Positions 8,528 to 34,257 of a DNA stretch of 34,257 nt are shown piece by piece. Position 1 is the stretch's first letter. The number at the start of each line of letters is the position of its first letter. The DNA comes from an uncultured Pseudobutyrivibrio sp. (GTDB lineage: Bacteria; Bacillota; Clostridia; Lachnospirales; Lachnospiraceae). The position numbers and the translations under genes are program-made. The stretch covers positions 1 through 34,257 of the forward strand of contig CAMJBT010000033.1 of NCBI GenBank assembly GCA_946403965.1. The letters run 5' to 3'. The notes beneath the pieces are model-generated. The model made no database searches. It saw nothing but the letters and a program-made list of their open reading frames with translations, and was not told the origin of the DNA.

Positions 8528-8534
8528 AGTGAAA

Positions 8535-8739
8535 GGCTGACTCAGCAGAGGAAAAGTCGTAAGAGTCAGCCAGGCGGGCCAACAGCAAAGAGAAAAAGAG
8601 GCATGTCAGAGCAAAAAAGGCTGACTCAGCAGGGGGAAAGCCGTAAGAGTCAGCCAGACAAGCCAACAGCAAAGAGAAAAAGAGGCATGCCAAAGCAAAA
8701 AAGGCTGACTAAGCTAGAAGATAGCCGGAACAGTCAGCC
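8535..8739 (+). repeat. 84-bp tandem hairpin array 1 (GGCTGACT/AGTCAGCC arms)
   Basis: Three units begin at 8535, 8619 and 8703, exactly 84 bp apart. Each has left arm GGCTGACT and right arm AGTCAGCC starting 29 bp later (8564, 8648, 8732), which gives an 8-bp stem with a 21-base loop. Linkers are purine-rich (…CAGCAAAGAGAAAAAGAGGCATG…) and well conserved between units 1 and 2. The third unit has diverged in its loop and linker. It fills the space between the acyltransferase stop and the sugar transferase leader. The minus strand is partly open but has no convincing start. The same geometry recurs at 14031 and 34028. Confidence 0.85.
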
Positions 8740-8835
8740 AGGCGAGCCATCAGCAAAATGCTTTGCCTCAGGTATTCGATTCCCTAGGAAAATAAATACA
8801 GATAAATGATTAAACATAGAATATAGGAGCAGCGA

Positions 8836-9622: not shown

Positions 9623-12193
9623 TTGGTAGAAAATGGGAAGAATGAGAAAAAATGGAATTTTTTAGATATAGATTCTATTAAAAACATAACAAATCATGAC
9701 ATCAGTTATTATGTACAGAAAGGTCTGTTTAGCGATGAGCAGATAAAACAAAAGAACTTTATTAATCATATGATTAATAATGATATTCCATTTTGTGCTC
9801 TTGTTTCTGGGTTTAGAGGAACAGGGAAGTCTGTTTTTGTGGATTATATTTTTGACGAATATACGAATGATAGAGAGGGCAGATGGGAAAATGACAATGT
9901 TATCGTTGTCAAGTTCAATGCAACAAAGTATGTATCTTATGAGTATTTCTTGAGAAAAATTATTCGAGAGTTATACTTGGCTGCAAATAAGAAGCGTAAT
10001 AAGGTGCAAAACATAGATGACTTAAGATGTTTATATGTGCGTACCTTTAATGAGGTTACTGAGAGCAGTTCTGAAAAAGAAAGTACAGCTATTAATAAGG
10101 AGATAATTGCATCGCTAAGTCTCAAAACTTCAGCAGATATTAGCACAAAAATCAATATAGTTTTAAATTTGATATTGGCGGGTTTGATATACTTTTCAAA
10201 TATAACGATAAAATATTTAGATAAGGCTTTGTCTTTGAAAATTCCTCTAATTATACTTATTGCAATAAATGTTATTATTGGTGTGAACACTGAGTACAAG
10301 CGTAAAAAAAGCTATGAAAAAAAGAAATCCATGAATATTAAGTCCTTGTATGATGGCGAAATAGCTGAGTATAAATTATTCAATGAGCTAAAGAAGATTA
10401 ATGACGAGGGCAAAAAGGTAGTTTTTATCATAGATGAATTGGACAAGCTTGGCGATGATGAAGTTGAACAAATCGTTCGTGAATTAAAGCCACTACTTCT
10501 TTATATCTATTGTGATTCCGTGCTTGTGGCAGGAATTAATTTTGAAGACAAAATAATTCAGGAAAGCACAGCTATGGATTCGGTCGCATCTAGTTTGTTT
10601 AATTATAGGATTTATGTGCCGCTAGGTTTTTTGGCCGATTACGAAAAAATATCATCATTGGTATCAGGACAGCCTGTCTTTTTTGAACTGGATGACAATA
10701 CTAGAGATCTGTATTTTAAGATGAAGGCCATGCACTCAAGAGGGGTTAAAAGAGCTTTTATCAGCAACATTATGAGTGATGGTACATGGGAGAAGTCTGA
10801 TTTGATTGTTGATACCGAAAAGGCAGATAGTCTGTACCAAAAAGATGGCATAGTGGATTACTACGAAGATTTATTAAGGTTGGAGGAGCATCTGGCTGAA
10901 TTGTATTCAGATCAAGAATATTTAATCCGAGATTTATCATTACAGTATGGCAATTATGTGATTAGCTTTTTGGCCAACAAAGGGTACATAAAAACAAATG
11001 ATTATATAGCTTATATTAGAACTCGTGTCGATTATGGTATTCCTGAATCTAGTATGAAATACATAAAAAAGATGCTGTCAAAGGGAGAGAGGGAAAGCAT
11101 CATAAAGATTATTTTGGATGAAGATGGAGGGGTAGGTTATGAAAATATTCCTGATTTTCCATCTCCTGCGCCAAATCCAGATAATGTGTCTGGCCAATCT
11201 CTTGCTGTTCAAGTGGATGAACAATGTGATAGAGATGATTCAACAGGACAAGCCCATGCCGTTCAAGTGGATGAACAATGTGATACAGATGATTCACAAG
11301 GACAAGCCCATGATGCTCAGGTGGTTGAACTATCTGACACATCTAATTCCGCATTAAAAAAGGTTAATATAACATTGCCCGAAAACTATAGGAAAATAGA
11401 AATTGGAAGATTTCTTGCGGATTCATTATCGAATCGAAAAGATCAATATGGAACTATTTTTGATGGAAATATAAAGTATAGATATAGGGAAGATGGAAAT
11501 AAAGAGTTCCTTGATATGATACTTTCTCAATTGCATCGATGTGGTGTTACTGTCAATAGTAGACAGTGGGGATTTCTAGACGATGTAGTGAGGGTGTTTT
11601 ATTATTTTGCCTCATATATGAATTGCGCAATGGATGAAGTAGCTGATTTAATCTTAGAGGCTTTAGATAAAAGCGGACGCCTGGAAACTGGATACCGAAA
11701 TATAAGCCAATCTAGCATGATAAATCTTTTGTGTTACGTTTTTAATGGAGATAATAGCAGACTTAAAGTTACAAATTATGTGAAGATGCTGATGATAATG
11801 CTGTATTTTAAGGATGATGCATATACAGAATTAAGAAAATTCCTTGACAAGGAATGGAACAGAATAATAGGTCCATTTGATATGGTGGACGATCTTCATC
11901 CAGCAATAGGAATGCAGATTCGCTACTACAAATCTATTTCTTATCTTAAACAGTATGATCCAAATCGTCGTGTCGCTCTAAATGAAACAATGTGTAAAAC
12001 GGCATTGGAACTAAAACTGGAAAGAATAGCCATGGTAGTTTTTTCTATATCATATATTTCGCAGGAACAATGGGATTCATATGAGAATACAACCGATAAA
12101 CTTCACTCAAAAATGTTATTGGTAAATTTATGTTCATATGAAGAATTTAAGAAAGATATAGACAATCTATTAGGTTATTTTAAAGAAAAGTAA
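9623..12193 (+). CDS. KAP-like membrane-anchored P-loop NTPase
   Basis: An 856-residue protein with a Walker A GFRGTGKS (about residues 63-70), two hydrophobic segments (about 177-196 and 206-221), and then a Walker B strand VVFIIDELDKL (about 266-276). Transmembrane helices placed between Walker A and Walker B are a hallmark of KAP-family NTPases. The C-terminal half is helical with no domain I recognise. Residues 523-576 hold three tandem 18-residue acidic repeats (…GQAHAVQVDEQCDTDDS type). Start: TTG at 9623, because AAGGAGG ends eight bases before it; the TTG at 9605 overlaps that site. Five phased AGTTATAG repeats lie upstream and a terminator lies at 12331. Some KAP NTPases occur in anti-phage or mobile contexts; here the function is unknown. 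AT-rich and unlike the glycan genes beside it. Confidence 0.72.
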   Translation: MVENGKNEKKWNFLDIDSIKNITNHDISYYVQKGLFSDEQIKQKNFINHMINNDIPFCALVSGFRGTGKSVFVDYIFDEYTNDREGRWENDNVIVVKFNATKYVSYEYFLRKIIRELYLAANKKRNKVQNIDDLRCLYVRTFNEVTESSSEKESTAINKEIIASLSLKTSADISTKINIVLNLILAGLIYFSNITIKYLDKALSLKIPLIILIAINVIIGVNTEYKRKKSYEKKKSMNIKSLYDGEIAEYKLFNELKKINDEGKKVVFIIDELDKLGDDEVEQIVRELKPLLLYIYCDSVLVAGINFEDKIIQESTAMDSVASSLFNYRIYVPLGFLADYEKISSLVSGQPVFFELDDNTRDLYFKMKAMHSRGVKRAFISNIMSDGTWEKSDLIVDTEKADSLYQKDGIVDYYEDLLRLEEHLAELYSDQEYLIRDLSLQYGNYVISFLANKGYIKTNDYIAYIRTRVDYGIPESSMKYIKKMLSKGERESIIKIILDEDGGVGYENIPDFPSPAPNPDNVSGQSLAVQVDEQCDRDDSTGQAHAVQVDEQCDTDDSQGQAHDAQVVELSDTSNSALKKVNITLPENYRKIEIGRFLADSLSNRKDQYGTIFDGNIKYRYREDGNKEFLDMILSQLHRCGVTVNSRQWGFLDDVVRVFYYFASYMNCAMDEVADLILEALDKSGRLETGYRNISQSSMINLLCYVFNGDNSRLKVTNYVKMLMIMLYFKDDAYTELRKFLDKEWNRIIGPFDMVDDLHPAIGMQIRYYKSISYLKQYDPNRRVALNETMCKTALELKLERIAMVVFSISYISQEQWDSYENTTDKLHSKMLLVNLCSYEEFKKDIDNLLGYFKEK

Positions 12194-12368: not shown

Positions 12369-12626
12369 GTATAATAGAAATAATAAAAAGAATTTTTTAG
12401 AATCTAGATTATCCCTTAAATAATTAAGAGGTATTGCTTATTATTGTAATTGATTTTACTTATCATTGTGAATGATACTATTTATAATCATTAGTTAAAA
12501 AGATAGGGATATCTTGAAATATAGAATAGGTTTAAATGCTTTGAACAGCATTTGAGTCATGGTGTGATTAGATTTTTTAGTACATGAAATATTTTCTGAA
12601 GGAAAATATTGCCAGGCAAAGCCAGG
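12369..12626. other. AT-rich gene-free stretch
   Basis: No reading frame with a ribosome site, no RNA gene and no clear promoter could be supported here. It leads into the structured repeats that start at 12627. Confidence 0.5.
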
Positions 12627-12662
12627 TTCTTGCGGGTCTTTTCCTTAAGTTGCCCGCAAGAA
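12627..12662 (+). repeat. Perfect 10-bp hairpin, relative of the element at 28904
   Basis: TTCTTGCGGG (12627-12636) pairs with CCCGCAAGAA (12653-12662) around a loop containing CTTTTCCTTAAGT. The loop and the following GTCA are shared with 28904-28944, where the stem reads TTCTTGTG/CACAAGAA. The C-G to T-A change is made on both arms. The palindrome AAGTCATGACTT (12661-12672) links this hairpin to the next repeat. Confidence 0.7.
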
Positions 12663-12665
12663 GTC

Positions 12666-12789
12666 ATGACTTCTTGCTGACCAAACAATGAAATTGTCAG
12701 CAAGAATCCTGCTTTGCAGGACATGAAAATAGATAAATCTATTTTCATGGTATTTACGATTCCTGTTTTTCTGAGGGAAAACAAGAATC
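12666..12789 (+). repeat. 124-bp structured direct repeat, copy A
   Basis: About 124 bp repeated at 12851 with scattered changes. It holds four hairpins in a row: CTTGCTGAC/GTCAGCAAG, CCTGC-TTT-GCAGG, ATGAAAATAGAT/ATCTATTTTCAT, and GATTCCTGTTTTTC paired with a slightly shortened GAAAACAAGAATC. No coding frame makes sense through it. The nearest gene is the minus-strand nuclease-like protein, whose 3' end is at 13054. Confidence 0.75.
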
Positions 12790-12850
12790 TATAGAAATTC
12801 AAAATAGAAGTATATTGTAAATTTCATATTATAGTAATTCAAAGGATTTT

Positions 12851-12974
12851 ATGACTTCTTGTAACCAAGCAATGAAATTGTCATCAAGAATCCTACTTTG
12901 TAGGACATGAAAATAGATAAATCTATTTTCATGGTATTCACGATTCCTGTTTTTCTAAGGGAAAAACAAGAATC
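12851..12974 (+). repeat. 124-bp structured direct repeat, copy B
   Basis: Second copy of the 12666-12789 repeat, 185 bp downstream. The second hairpin reads CCTAC-TTT-GTAGG instead of CCTGC-TTT-GCAGG, so both arms changed together and pairing is kept. The 12-bp ATGAAAATAGAT/ATCTATTTTCAT stem is identical. The first hairpin has partly decayed (CTTGTAAC against GTCATCAAG). The last hairpin (12942-12974) could also act as a terminator for the minus-strand gene. Confidence 0.75.
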
Positions 12975-13053
12975 AATAATATTACATCTACAATAACCAG
13001 CATGTGACAGAAGCACATTATAGAAGTTGTTAAATAAGTTATTTTAGTGTCTT

Positions 13054-14030: not shown

Positions 14031-14402
14031 GGCTGACTGAGGGAGTGGGATGGCACTATAGTCAGCCGAAATTAGCAGGAGAAGACTGGTGGCAGGAAGG
14101 CTAGGAATAGAAAAGGCTGACTGAGAGAGGGAAATGGCACTATAGTCAGCCAAAATGGGCAGGAGAAGGAAGCTGGCAGGGAGGCTGATAGAATAAAAGG
14201 CTGACTGAGAGAGTGGGATAGCACTATAGTCAGCCAGAATGGGCAGGAGAAGGATGTTGGCAGGGAGGCTGATAGAATAAAAGGCTGACTGAGAGAGTGG
14301 GATAGCACTATAGTCAGCCAAAATGGGTAGGAGAAGGCTGCTGGCAGGTTGGCATGGAGAAAAAAGGCTGACTGGGCAAGAAGAATAGCACTATAGTCAG
14401 CC
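14031..14402 (+). repeat. 84-bp tandem hairpin array 2 (GGCTGACT/AGTCAGCC arms)
   Basis: Five units with left arms at 14031, 14115, 14199, 14283 and 14366 (84, 84, 84 and 83 bp apart). The right arms AGTCAGCC start 29 bp later in every unit (14060, 14144, 14228, 14312, 14395). The 21-base loops share …GCACTAT before the right arm. Linkers (47 bases, AGGAGAAGG…GGCAGGGAGGCTGATAGAATAAAA type) are purine-rich. Because 84 is divisible by 3, the minus strand reads as a hydrophobic 28-residue repeat over most of the array, but start signals are poor. It separates the minus-strand nuclease-like gene from the glycan genes at 14683. Confidence 0.88.
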
Positions 14403-14682
14403 AAAATATTCCTGAAGGCATAATGCTCAATAAAGAAATCCCCGCGGGAACCAGGTTCCTGCGACGCATCAGATAAATGTCACCATATTATCCTGTAAAG
14501 AAATAGTGTATAATTGTAGCAGTAGCCTTCGGGGCTGCGCTTATTTTAGTGCAAAAAACTAATTGAATTATGATTAGTTTTTCATTAAGGTTATATAAAG
14601 CGACTGAGATATTGAGGGATTTTCAATGATGATCCCAATAGAAGACAAAATACTAATCAATCAAGGAACATAAACAACAATT
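14403..14682 (+). promoter_or_regulatory. Leader region of the glycosyltransferase operon: -10 and two hairpins
   Basis: TATAAT at 14509-14514 lacks a good -35. A small hairpin with a TTCG loop (GCAG…CC-TTCG-GG…CTGC, 14519-14538) would be at the very 5' end of the transcript. A perfect 10-bp stem AAAAACTAAT (14554-14563) / ATTAGTTTTT (14573-14582) follows, which has a U-rich 3' arm. The coding start is 100 bases later. The arrangement suggests transcription control in the leader, but no ligand class is recognised. Confidence 0.45.
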
Positions 14683-15694: not shown

Positions 15695-17221
15695 ATGACT
15701 AAAAAGACTAAAAGCATTGCAAGCACAGCTATGGTGCTTACAATTTTGACACTATGCTTCAAGGCTTTAGGCTTTGTGAAGCAGGCGGTGGTGGCGTATT
15801 ATTTTGGAGCCACCTTCGAGACAGACATATATTATGTAGCCTTCAATTTCGTAGGCACACTTTCGTCGGCATTTATTCGTGCAATCACTATTTCACTGGT
15901 TGGAATATACACACATTGCCTTGTTCAAAAGGGCAAGGCTGCAGCATCCAAGTTGCTAAGCGCATGCCTGGAGGTGTTGGTGCCGGTGGTGCTGGTGGTA
16001 CTTCTATTGGCATATATGCTGACACCGCAGATTGCCATGGCATTGGCGCCTAAGTATTCCCCAGAGGAATCAATGCTGTTACAATCGTATTTACGAATTT
16101 GCTATCCATTCTTTCTGTTTTCAGTGGTGACATTGGTTTGGACATCGTTGTTGGATGCAAACAAGGATTTCGTGGCAAGTAGAACCGAATCCTTCATCAC
16201 CAGCACAACTACCATTTTGTGTTGTGTTTTCCTCTACAGCATTCAGGCAGTCACATCACTTGTTATCGCTCAGTACATTAGCTATGTGATTTTTGGTACA
16301 TTGCTTTTAATTAGAGGAAAGAAATATTTCGATTTCACATTTGTCAGCTTCAAAATTGTGCCAGAGATTCGCACAGTTTTGATGACAGCACTTCCACTTT
16401 TTGTGGGCAACTCAGTGTCACAAATCAACAAAATCGTGGACAACTCACTTTCAACAGGCTTGGGTCACGGAAATGCCTCGGCCCTTTCATATGCTGTGGT
16501 TCTTGAAGATTTTGTCAGCATCATCCTTGTCAATAATGTGGTGGATATTTTGTATGTAAACTTTTCAACTTACACCGCTGAGGGTGATTACAACAAACTC
16601 ACAGACACAATGAAAAAAGCAATCAACATCATGATATGCATCATGATTCCGATTACTATCGTCACATGTCTCTGCGCAAAGGAGATTGTTTCTATTGCAT
16701 ATTATCGCGGAAGCTTCACATGGGATGATGTGCTAATGACCAGCGCCGCACTCATAGGATATGCAATTGGTTTTACAAGTATGGGCGTAAGGGATATAAT
16801 CTTACGAGGCTTGTATTCATTTAAGAATACAAAGGGGCCGATGATTACGGGATTTTTTGCCGTTGGCTTCAACATTTTCTTTAGTATTTTGTTGTCCAGA
16901 TATATTGGTATCATGGGAATTTCTATTGCAAGCTCAATCAGCCTGACTGTGAATTTCCTGATTAATTCACGCATGCTGAAAAAGCATGTGCCTAGCTACA
17001 GCCTGAGCCTGCACATTCCAGTTTTACTGAAACAGGTCCCAGCTGCGATTTACGCAGTGGCAGTTGTACTTCTTGTAAAGCATTTTGTAGCAGGCAATTT
17101 GCTAGTATTTATGATTTCAGCGATAGCTGCGTTGGGTGGATATGCGCTGATATTGCTTGCGATGAATATAGAAGAAGTTAATTATTTCAAAACTAAAATA
17201 TTATCGAAAGTAAAGAAGTAG
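15695..17221 (+). CDS. Polysaccharide flippase of the MurJ/MviN type
   Basis: A 508-residue polytopic membrane protein with about 12-14 hydrophobic helices. The N-terminus (TILTLCFKALGFVKQAVVAYYFGA…TDIYYVAFN) is the conserved opening of MurJ/MviN lipid flippases, in which the RE/KQ…YFG.....D.Y..A pattern lines the central cavity. In this position, beside glycan genes, it is more likely a Wzx-like exporter of undecaprenyl-diphosphate oligosaccharide than the essential lipid II flippase. Start: ATG at 15695; the AGAGGA site is about 15 bases away, a little far. The 3' end overlaps the first copy of a 41-bp tandem repeat (17180-17302); the two downstream copies lie outside the gene and out of frame. 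Confidence 0.82.
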   Translation: MTKKTKSIASTAMVLTILTLCFKALGFVKQAVVAYYFGATFETDIYYVAFNFVGTLSSAFIRAITISLVGIYTHCLVQKGKAAASKLLSACLEVLVPVVLVVLLLAYMLTPQIAMALAPKYSPEESMLLQSYLRICYPFFLFSVVTLVWTSLLDANKDFVASRTESFITSTTTILCCVFLYSIQAVTSLVIAQYISYVIFGTLLLIRGKKYFDFTFVSFKIVPEIRTVLMTALPLFVGNSVSQINKIVDNSLSTGLGHGNASALSYAVVLEDFVSIILVNNVVDILYVNFSTYTAEGDYNKLTDTMKKAINIMICIMIPITIVTCLCAKEIVSIAYYRGSFTWDDVLMTSAALIGYAIGFTSMGVRDIILRGLYSFKNTKGPMITGFFAVGFNIFFSILLSRYIGIMGISIASSISLTVNFLINSRMLKKHVPSYSLSLHIPVLLKQVPAAIYAVAVVLLVKHFVAGNLLVFMISAIAALGGYALILLAMNIEEVNYFKTKILSKVKK

Positions 17222-17302
17222 ATTATTTTAAATTAGAAATATTATCGAAAGTAAAGAAGTAGATTATTTCAAATTAGAAATATTATCGAAAAATAAAAAG
17301 TA
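17180..17302 (+). repeat. Three tandem 41-bp repeats at the flippase 3' end
   Basis: Units at 17180-17220, 17221-17261 and 17262-17302 share …AATATTATCGAAAGTAAAGAAGTA with a few changes. The first unit encodes the last residues and most of the stop of the flippase; the other two are untranslated copies. Because 41 is not a multiple of 3, the expansion would shift frame if placed before the stop. Confidence 0.8.
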
Positions 17303-17310
17303 ATTATGAA

Positions 17311-33133: not shown

Positions 33134-33159
33134 TAGGAAATACGGGGGTGAGGTATAAC

Positions 33160-33780
33160 ATGAAAAGTATCGCAATTATGGGAGCAAGTGGTCACTGTAA
33201 GGTTGTAGCAGATATAGCTCGTTTAAATGGATATGATGAAATTGTTTTCGTAGATAAGAACCCTGAATGTGACAAGTTTGGGGAATATCATGTAGCTGAT
33301 GAAGATACAGATTTAGATTATTACTTGGACAATAACTATGATTTCATAGTTGGAATTGGTGATGGTAAAATACGACGAAAGGTTCAGGAAAATCTTGAAG
33401 CTTTAGGCGCAGATATTGTTTCACTGGTTCACCCAAAAGCTGTTGTGACCCAAGACACAACTATTGGTCAGGGCACAGTTGTTATGGCAGGAGCGGTAAT
33501 CAATCCTGGAACAACCATTGGTAAGGGATGCATCATCAACACAAGTGCTTCAGTGGATCATGACAATGTGGTGGGAGATTATGTTCACATTTCAGTAGGT
33601 GCTCACACCGCCGGCACCGTAAAGGTCGGGGATAATTGTTGGTGTGGAATAGGATCTATTATCAGCAACAACATTGATGTTTGTGAAGATGTTTTTCTGT
33701 GTGCTGGCACAGTTGTAGTGAAAAACATTGAAAAGCCAGGCAAGTATGCAGGCGTTCCAGCTCGCTTTGTACCATTCTAG
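33160..33780 (+). CDS. neuD: Sugar O/N-acetyltransferase (NeuD/PglD family)
   Basis: A 206-residue acetyltransferase. An N-terminal Rossmann-like sugar-binding domain (SIAIMGASGHCKVVADIARLNGY…) precedes a left-handed beta helix of hexapeptide repeats (about 85-206). The general-base histidine is H134 in SASVDHDNVVG. It ends KYAGVPARFVP, the usual finish. NeuD-type proteins O-acetylate sialic acids, and PglD/LegH-type relatives N-acetylate the C4 amine of UDP-4-amino-sugars; both are possible here, because PglF- and PglE-like genes precede it. The ATG at 33160 is chosen over the GTG at 33148 because the GGTGAGG site lies about seven bases before it and family similarity begins at MKSIAI. Last gene of the neu unit; a terminator follows. 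Confidence 0.87.
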   Translation: MKSIAIMGASGHCKVVADIARLNGYDEIVFVDKNPECDKFGEYHVADEDTDLDYYLDNNYDFIVGIGDGKIRRKVQENLEALGADIVSLVHPKAVVTQDTTIGQGTVVMAGAVINPGTTIGKGCIINTSASVDHDNVVGDYVHISVGAHTAGTVKVGDNCWCGIGSIISNNIDVCEDVFLCAGTVVVKNIEKPGKYAGVPARFVPF

Positions 33781-33849
33781 TGGCCGAGTATTGCTATCAA
33801 TTATTTTAATAATTAGAGTTTAAATTATCTCTTTAATGTGCTAAAGTGT

Positions 33850-33881
33850 AAGGAGTGTACCTGAGGGTATGCTCCTTATTT
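33850..33881 (+). terminator. Probable terminator after the neu genes
   Basis: AAGGAG.TG.TACC (33850-33861) pairs with GGTA.TG.CTCCTT (33866-33877), with a central mismatch, followed by ATTTAT. It lies 70 bases after the neuD stop. Confidence 0.65.
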
Positions 33882-33972
33882 ATATTGGATAAGGATAGTA
33901 GATGCAAAGATAAGAAATATTGCCTGGCAAAGGCAGGTTAAGCTGGGCTTTTTTTTGAGTAGGTTGCAAAAA
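33882..33972. other. Gene-free lead into array 3
   Basis: Contains ATATTGCCTGGCAAAGGCAGGTT (33918-33940, in part), similar to the start of the structured region near 12606, where GCCAGGCAAAGCCAGGTT is read. A short TAGGTT/AACCTA hairpin lies at 33960-33976. No gene could be supported. Confidence 0.45.
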
Positions 33973-34203
33973 CCTATGCTTTAAAGAGAAGTCAAACCAG
34001 GGTAAAGCAGGCAGGTAAGTCAAGAAAGGCATACTAGGAGAATAAAAGCAGAAAAAAGTATGCTATTAAAGGAACAGAAGCTATGGTAAAGAATACAGGT
34101 AAGCTCCAAAAGGCATACTAGGAAAATAAAAGTAGAAAAAAGTATGCTTTAAAGAGAAGTCAAATTAGGGCAAAGCATGCATGCAAGCCAAGAAAGGCAT
34201 ACT
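33973..34203 (+). repeat. 84-bp tandem hairpin array 3 (GGCATACT/AGTATGCT arms)
   Basis: Left arms GGCATACT at 34028, 34112 and 34196 are exactly 84 bp apart. Right arms AGTATGCT at 34057 and 34141 start 29 bp after their partners, and a degenerate right arm CCTATGCT lies 84 bp earlier at 33973. The third left arm has no partner in register; the expected place (34225) reads otherwise, so the array ends there. Loops are A-rich (AGGAAAATAAAAGTAGAAAAA form) and linkers purine-rich. The geometry is the same as in arrays 1 and 2 although the arms are different sequences. Confidence 0.85.
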
Positions 34204-34257
34204 AGTCTAGCGGTGATATGTCAAGATGAAAAATCTTGAAAAGTCCCTTTCTTTTTG

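Follow-up and report, generated by a model that had tools for sequence, protein, structure and literature searches.

Intergenic tandem arrays with constant inverted-arm geometry and variable arm sequences in a Pseudobutyrivibrio genome and its relatives

Introduction

BIME/REP sequences of E. coli and other bacteria are intergenic and palindromic, with inverted pairs that often stand in tandem, and roles in supercoiling, attenuation and mRNA stability have been suggested for them (PMC8266576, PMC3733652). The range given for REP is a stem of 5-13 bp and a loop of 2-20, and the GTAG-1 arrays of Thauera, which are GTAG REPs, flank exopolysaccharide genes (PMC3733652). BOX elements of Streptococcus pneumoniae are modular and intergenic, with tandem boxB copies that vary in number (PMC3049150). 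Short inverted repeats with an 8-bp stem form large clusters in dRS3 and the neisserial mosaic arrays (PMC3733652, PMC2267715). Tandem intergenic repeats of 50-100 bp also occur at several loci as MIRU/VNTR minisatellites, which are not known to have inverted arms or helical spacing.

Here we describe intergenic palindromic arrays for which BIME/REP is the nearest family in function-like terms, and which none of the families tested fits. The analysed stretch (the window) is the whole of contig C33, 34,257 bp, in a genome assembly of 3.44 Mb (181 contigs, 94.8% complete). The genome was searched with arm patterns and BLAST, and with TRF on 423 kb comprising the window and 20 further stretches, four of which were picked for carrying matches. 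Coordinates of the main features are collected in Table 1.

Results

Gene content of the window

A large surface-polysaccharide or sialic-acid-like cluster occupies positions 1-33780 (20 ORFs scanned). We identified genes for a sugar transferase, a MurJ-like flippase, three DegT aminotransferases, GtrII, NeuB, epimerases and PglD, together with two AAA-ATPase_like/PDDEXK_9 genes and a KAP-type NTPase. Two other tandem repeats, one within the gene for the KAP NTPase (54 bp x 2.6, 11203-11341) and one where a gene ends (41 bp x 3.3, 17172-17307), have no inverted arms of at least 7 bp. A separate, interspersed short-hairpin element (CTTCTTGCGGG..., AGAAAAT...) is present in many copies of about 80-98% identity in the 423 kb, and flanks some of the arrays described below.

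Table 1. Locations of arrays, accompanying hairpins and related repeats in the window and elsewhere.
Feature	Location	Strand	Basis or remark
Array A1 (type 1, 84-bp period, 3 units)	8532..8757	+	purine 0.71 on gene strand
Array A2 (type 1, 5 units, spacings 84, 84, 84, 83)	14031..14407	+	
Terminator-like hairpin, T-rich tail	14522..14538	+	about 115 bp downstream of A2; consensus match only
Leader motif CTTTAATGTGCTAAAGT, then hairpin (33848-33879)	33818..33890	+	sequence; A3 comes after it
Array A3 (type 2)	33968..34205	+	sequence, TRF; copies on C38
Short-hairpin element copies	window 12598-12981; L025 6157-6273; L029 18893-19083, 19516-19581; L038 10371-10494, 12715-12961; L032 14477-14524; L033 6734-6779		
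84-bp arrays by contig	C10 both types; C20 both types; C33 two type 1 and one type 2; C38 both types; C54 and C74 type 2		
Sister array periods	G014 51 bp; G008 53 bp; G010 73 bp; G005 52 bp; G013 52 bp		TRF

Three arrays of common geometry

Arrays A1, A2 and A3 have a common geometry of inverted arms. In A1, the arm GGCTGACT starts at 8535, 8619 and 8703 and its partner AGTCAGCC at 8564, 8648 and 8732. The two GGCTGACT arrays, A1 and A2, account for 17 arm matches in the window (0.67 expected). The original prediction placed a third array with an 84-bp period and a 29-bp arm offset near the end of the window, and such an array exists: the 5' arm GGCATACT starts at 34028, 34112 and 34196 and the 3' arm AGTATGCT at 34057 and 34141, so that both period and offset are exact in two units. 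TRF reports a period of 84, 2.8 copies, 77% matches and a score of 244. The array is small; its third 5' arm is without a partner, and its left part (33968-34027) is a degenerate partial unit. The arms had been described as changed yet still complementary, which is so for seven of eight Watson-Crick pairs; with AGTATGCT as the 3' arm instead of AGTATGCC, the last pair is G-T. By arm count A3 is marginal, since GGCATACT alone gives four matches in the window (0.84 expected) and four were reached in 2/100 shuffles; it is secure because of its period and its copies elsewhere in the genome.

A2 lies between a minus-strand ORF without a Pfam match and a glycosyltransferase gene, and its DNA matched no plasmid. 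Its units (14033-14397) resemble a sigma-70-like box pair, with CTGACT-18-TATAGT in 5/5 units. Reading the arrays as promoters with -35/-10 boxes was rejected as TAT is absent from most other arrays. Coding tandem repeats were also considered, but in 10/11 TRF rows of the 84-bp arrays of this genome no frame stays open across the array; the exception, A1, has a frame of 93 codons.

Setting of array A3

The leader motif that A3 follows (Table 1) has no Rfam match in the window. It also precedes the metY-like gene, which encodes a Cys/Met-metabolism PLP enzyme (PF01053), in most sister regions examined. Conservation is centred on CTTTAATGTGNTAAAGT upstream of metY-like genes (most of L102-L127, and the window), often with a hairpin next to it. 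In three sister loci, L103 (G005), L105 (G022) and L127 (G010), a PglD-like protein is encoded directly upstream of the metY-like gene, and the window protein at 33148-33780 is 76-80% identical to all three. The metY-like gene of this genome is on contig C38, where a type-1 array precedes it and reaches the contig end. From this synteny with the sister loci, C33 and C38 most likely join at A3, which would place both A3 and the C38 array in the leader of the metY-like gene. A TRF array upstream of the metY-like gene was found in 2/29 sister loci (27 genomes). In G014 a 51-bp array, whose arms resemble TACTACCT/AGGTAGTA, lies a short way upstream of the gene, and in G008 a 53-bp array lies about 1 kb upstream.

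Arrays of 84 bp elsewhere in the genome

We identified at least 11 arrays of 84 bp on six contigs, with two arm types. Related copies of A3 were present, as asked of a repeat family: one on C38 is 94% identical to it over 95 bp, and further arrays are on C10, C20, C54 and C74. The C38 type-2 array, like A3, has two paired units and no more. A search for inverted pairs in the 423 kb of host DNA placed 15 and 10 pairs in the 7-mer cells for an 8-mer offset of 29 and a period of 84, and 13 and 9 pairs in those at the complementary offsets, with 80/5600 offset/period cells holding any pair. The arms also form discrete types, as had been suggested, with two at the 84/29 geometry in this genome and GGCAGTA at 52 bp. 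The 84-bp arrays are unevenly spread, since none was found in 16 unselected 20-kb stretches. Pattern-found arms lie within arrays: all 17 exact type-1 pairs at the 29-bp offset and all 17 type-2 pairs with at most two mismatches belong to the arrays listed (control pattern, one match). Contigs C16, C33 and C38 each begin or break off in an array or next to one, which makes the numbers and lengths given here underestimates.

Consensus units of ten arrays agree in the arms and mostly in an AAA that precedes the 5' arm, but in little beyond these; the bases preceding the next arm are AAA in 9/10 arrays and TTT in array C1. Some tails are related (A1-D1 30/47, A3-D2 29, C2-D1 26 and B1-B2 25, with 0/2000 shuffles as good), and A3-C2 and B2-C2 show a weaker likeness (23, p about 0.005); these p values are uncorrected for 45 pairs, most others of which are at shuffle level. 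On contig C10, array B1 is of type 1 and B2 of type 2, and their tails match at 25/47 positions. Thus, both arms differ on a partly conserved spacer, in an array-level switch from TG to AT. Arrays of one contig share the orientation of the purine-rich strand.

Per-site variation in the ten arrays is 0.093 in arms, 0.203 in loops and 0.184 in tails, figures to be read with the arms having also served to define units, with E and D2 as exceptions and with the real arm columns ranking 5th of 84 rotations. Higher-order repeats were identified at L029 12134-12510, L036 3423-3742 and L037 14461-15000, and for the first two of these TRF also gives periods of 168 or 167 bp; the tails of D1 come in two versions that alternate. 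A 1.1-kb segment covering an array and its right flank is common to C54 and C74 (92% over 1098 bp).

Arrays of about 52 bp and other species

GGCAGTA arrays of 52 bp are present in the same genome on C16, C17, C35, C38, C39, C45 and C165. Here GGCAGTA comes first and TACTGCC follows after a step of 28-30 bp, which is the arm orientation opposite to that of the sisters, and in many an A-run lies within the step. TRF on 905 kb of sister-genus DNA gave five non-coding inverted-arm array loci with different arms in each (Table 1), two of them seen in two overlapping stretches each. In the same 905-kb set, repeats within long open frames have no arms of at least 7 bp, A1 with its 93-codon frame apart. 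The generalisation that every non-coding tandem repeat has inverted arms was rejected, as the 41-bp repeat of the window (17172), in which no frame is open, is without arms, as are those at L029 19301, L038 13365, L133 19271, L151 15428 and L153 14094 (short frames).

A further 1.2 Mb of sister DNA yielded three more 52-bp arrays, two in G013 and one in G005. This set was drawn after the helix idea, and its three arrays, which lie in genomes already known for 52-bp arrays, are consistent with the first set rather than independent of it; for the extra G005 array, 18% of unit shuffles give an equally long arm. Repeats of 20-31 bp in the 1.2 Mb have no inverted arms, and the coding repeat L219 has a 7-bp pair, as do 52% of its shuffles. 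Imperfect arms are frequent in the sister arrays L102, L244 and L251, and array X (L021) combines a period of 53 bp with an offset of 17.

A loose GRYAGTA/TACTRYC pattern matched 17/29 genus genomes, this one included, although the single matches in G017 and G024 may be chance, the reversed control giving 1-3 matches in 8/29. Counts were 36 forward and 38 reverse in this genome and up to 55 and 56 in G018. Nearly all matches are of 58-60 nt in the three genomes listed, which indicates a period of 51-53 bp. A tight 52-bp pattern matched 1/397 family genomes, the same-genus G014, and did not match the genome studied here; it gave 0 matches in the 395 sampled family genomes outside the genus. The 84-bp arm pattern matched 4/397, three of them with a single match each (control pattern, 7/397). 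In the genomes sampled, the tested patterns are absent outside the genus.

In a Treponema MAG from horse faeces, L071 (3475-3720) has three units with GGCATACT arms in the 84/29 geometry and spacers that are mutually unlike. It is one of 22 stretches in a GTDB-wide scan for which about 7 chance matches were reckoned, and its arm pair occurs in 1/200 genomes of that MAG's genus; it is treated as convergence or coincidence, not as proof of transfer. A viral origin was considered and rejected: arm patterns in viral contigs gave one stretch and then six. The first (L086) has no tandem repeat of at least 30 bp by TRF and none by eye, and the six have no further flanked arm within 250 bp.

Constant spacing, central A-run and strand polarity

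Spacing is nearly constant over largely diverged spacers. In the 13 sister genomes with data (14 examined; an arm was counted if a second arm lay 46-59 bp away), the F-to-R distance is 28 in 94/106 cases and the R-to-F distance 23-24 in 89/91. Loop identity between genomes averages 0.40 (0.325 shuffled), with G019-G015 the closest pair at 0.63. As the loops are incompletely diverged, part of the constancy reflects shared descent. An A-run is located at the dyad, mid-gap (28-29 bp), in both array classes, with 76-83% A at four central positions in the 52-type (83 loops) and 8, 9 and 8 of 10 in the 84-bp arrays of this genome.

Periods of 84, 53, 51.3, 53, 73, 52 and 52 are phased at about 10.5 bp. 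As good a fit was given by 0/20,000 random sets if the seven values are independent, and the figure is 0.00245 for three distinct values, which is the number of independent periods left because the 52-53-bp arrays may share ancestry. The test was post hoc, with the weak 31-bp repeat L027 excluded; the whole-turn periods were noticed after the first periods had been seen, and are thus a lead and not proof. The arm offset of 28-29 bp is 2.7-2.8 helical turns.

The purine-rich strand is the sense strand of the neighbouring genes in 26/30 arrays with assignable direction (35 examined), and in 22/22 strongly polar ones. Gene direction was taken from ORFs of at least 100 aa, on one side only for 10 arrays, and the set includes G022 and G003 spans (L256, L257) assumed from match position, L257 without an arm pair. 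Gene-sense purine content is 0.62-0.74 in the 84-bp arrays of this genome. The mean of 109 further gaps between co-directional genes is 0.547 (sd 0.052), and a content of 0.63 is reached in 3.7% of these. Where both neighbours are known, 20/25 arrays lie between co-directional genes.

Complementarity of the arms

Arms mostly occur as matched doublets (GC/GC, AT/AT, AC/GT). At two variable positions, Watson-Crick pairs with the 28-bp neighbour number 75 and 65 of 83 (expected 45 and 40), and those with the neighbour on the other side 58 and 69 of 72 (expected 35 and 41), so complementarity is about equal for either neighbour arm. Shuffling of arms within arrays gave comparisons of 59/88 vs 54.5 (p 0.056) and 55/80 vs 52.4 (p 0.16). 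On the purine-rich strand G-U does not exceed A-C at either variable position (2 v 4; 9 v 7), the strand orientation being set by loop purine content, which is ambiguous in 28/83 loops. The loop-closing pair on this strand is G-T in 47/83 and A-C in 6. RNA folding of eight units gave z of -4.1 for A1 and -4.5 for L167, and -2.2, -1.0, -0.7, +0.6, -0.8 and -1.3 for the rest, with the folded L029 unit cut through an arm. One unit of C16 has a stem changed on both sides, from T-A to G-C, and units of C17, C35 and C45 have the unmatched combination.

From the unit-level pairing, G-U and folding tests, the matching of arms belongs to the array as a whole, and is not a demonstration of selection for hairpins. 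The claim of covariation, if this means that base pairing was selected, was not supported as stated, as both neighbours match about equally, shuffling nearly restores the match and G-U is not in excess. The related proposal, that pairing and spacing rather than sequence are selected, survives in part: spacing and inverted symmetry are kept while letters change, but hairpin-specific compensatory pairing was not seen. The complementarity would follow equally well from a single protein site present in inverted copies, or from palindrome correction, as from hairpin selection.

Comparison with described repeat families

The arrays resemble BIME/REP in being intergenic and palindromic with inverted pairs in tandem. 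The 8-bp stem is within the REP range, and the gap of 21 (84-type) or 17-19 (52-type) at its edge. REP sequences are tagged by a tetranucleotide beside the palindrome, GTAG (or CGTC), and have RAYT as a partner. The 84-bp arms have no such tag and no Y1 transposase was found in this genome; in the 52-type arms, GTA occurs inside AGTA. Also unlike REP, the arm pairs found by pattern occur in arrays only, with a fixed period and variable arms. The window arrays lie beside a polysaccharide cluster, as do the Thauera GTAG-1 arrays, but arrays here flank other genes too, among them those for a Cys/Met-metabolism PLP enzyme, an ABC transporter ATPase and a D-Ala-D-Ala carboxypeptidase (Pfam); the gene beside the C74 array has no Pfam family. 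BOX shares the modular intergenic organisation and the variable tandem copies, and differs in its boxA and boxC ends, whereas the arrays here have no single unit sequence. Flanks of 11 arrays revealed no end common to all; interspersed repeats are near some, and C54 and C74 share a right flank. Short inverted repeats, the 8-bp stem and clustering are shared with dRS3 and the neisserial arrays, but repeats of the CGTC class, which includes dRS3, are described with loops of 4-5 bp, in contrast to 17-21 bp, variable arms and a constant period here. CRISPR, which combines identical repeats and unrelated spacers with cas genes, was rejected because spacers within an array are similar. At gathering score, Rfam families gave 0 matches in the window and 0 in six array loci, and a literature search, mainly outside subscription journals, found no published description of such arrays. 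For the stretches and literature searched, the suggestion of an undescribed repeat system stands.

Discussion

We tentatively favour, without rating it as probable, the reading of the arrays as bipartite protein sites phased along the DNA helix. A unit would be a DNA site of about 36-37 bp, with two inverted 8-bp arms whose starts are 28-29 bp apart and an A-run at the dyad. Cores would follow head to tail near whole turns (5 for 52-53 bp, 7 for 73 bp and 8 for 84 bp), so that successive cores would all face the same way, and a putative dimeric DNA-binding protein on successive cores could form a phased nucleoprotein array between co-directional genes. Arm types might then be specificity classes in which both arms change together, with spacer letters free while length is kept. 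Units multiply by tandem duplication, as in the 168-bp higher-order repeats, and one array is carried in a segment at two loci. The lower variation of arms than of loops and tails, and the difference of both arms between B1 and B2, also speak for protein sites. We infer the binding, the dimer and any effect on neighbouring genes from these features of the DNA.

A somewhat less probable reading is of an RNA element, transcribed with co-directional genes, in which successive hairpins, with stems of 8-9 bp and purine- or A-rich loops of 17-21 nt, would block exonucleases or attenuate transcription, as with E. coli BIMEs. The sense-strand purine polarity (26/30) and the intercistronic positions (20/25) are better explained by RNA, as the DNA model needs no such bias, and the strong folding of A1 and L167, the G-T excess at the loop-closing pair (47/83 vs 6 A-C) and the both-sided stem change in one C16 unit point the same way. 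However, the remaining six of eight folds are unremarkable, hairpin-specific covariation was not seen, G-U does not exceed A-C at the variable positions, and the C16 change does not extend to C17, C35 and C45, whose units are unmatched. Near-fixed lengths are also not needed by an RNA, whose loops and linkers are expected to tolerate length change, so the fixed spacing favours DNA. Equal complementarity to both neighbours without a G-U excess is as expected of protein half-sites, and with the near-fixed lengths of free letters, the A-run and the whole-turn periods, protein sites fit better than RNA stems. Against protein sites are the offset of 17 in array X, an arm offset of 28-29 bp that is off whole turns, the imperfect arms of sister arrays and the related loops.

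Less likely still is a neutral or selfish satellite, in which units are duplicated by slippage and the arms are corrected towards one another by template switching at quasi-palindromes, a known class of mutation (PMC7202029), so that complementarity needs no selected function. The history of tandem duplication in the 168-bp higher-order repeats, the near-equal complementarity to both neighbours and the 1.1-kb array segment at 92% identity on C54 and C74 are all consistent with this. Under such a model, however, there is no reason to expect the same arms at loci far apart whose spacers are mostly unrelated, nor equal spacing in 13 genomes, a central A-run or near-whole-turn periods. That the arrays are REP/BIME elements moved by a RAYT (TnpA-REP) transposase is very improbable: intergenic palindromes, tandem clusters, species-specific arms and the Y1 family in 10/29 genus genomes agree with it, but PF01797 (Y1_Tnp) has 0 matches in this genome (94.8% complete), GTAG is absent before the 84-bp arms, and the pattern-found arm pairs sit in arrays and not as dispersed singles. 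That transposase was the candidate tested when looking for a protein family that co-occurs with the arrays; it was not found in this genome, and no co-occurring protein was identified.

Protein sites would also accommodate a broader, rather doubtful possibility, that of a genus-specific chromosomal system in which the 28-29-bp inverted geometry, with its central A-run, and the whole-turn spacing persist and arms are exchanged in matched sets. This would imply a fast-evolving DNA-binding partner that forms phased nucleoprotein arrays over intergenic DNA. Most bacterial intergenic repeats are known by their sequence; here, the geometry is constant and the sequence variable. Because of this, sequence-based catalogues would split the arrays into unrelated minisatellites, species by species. 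If a protein reads the arrays, the arm types and whole-turn spacing would offer a direct way to identify it and to ask what phased arrays do between genes. If no protein does, they would be a clean natural test case for palindromes that are kept complementary without selection.
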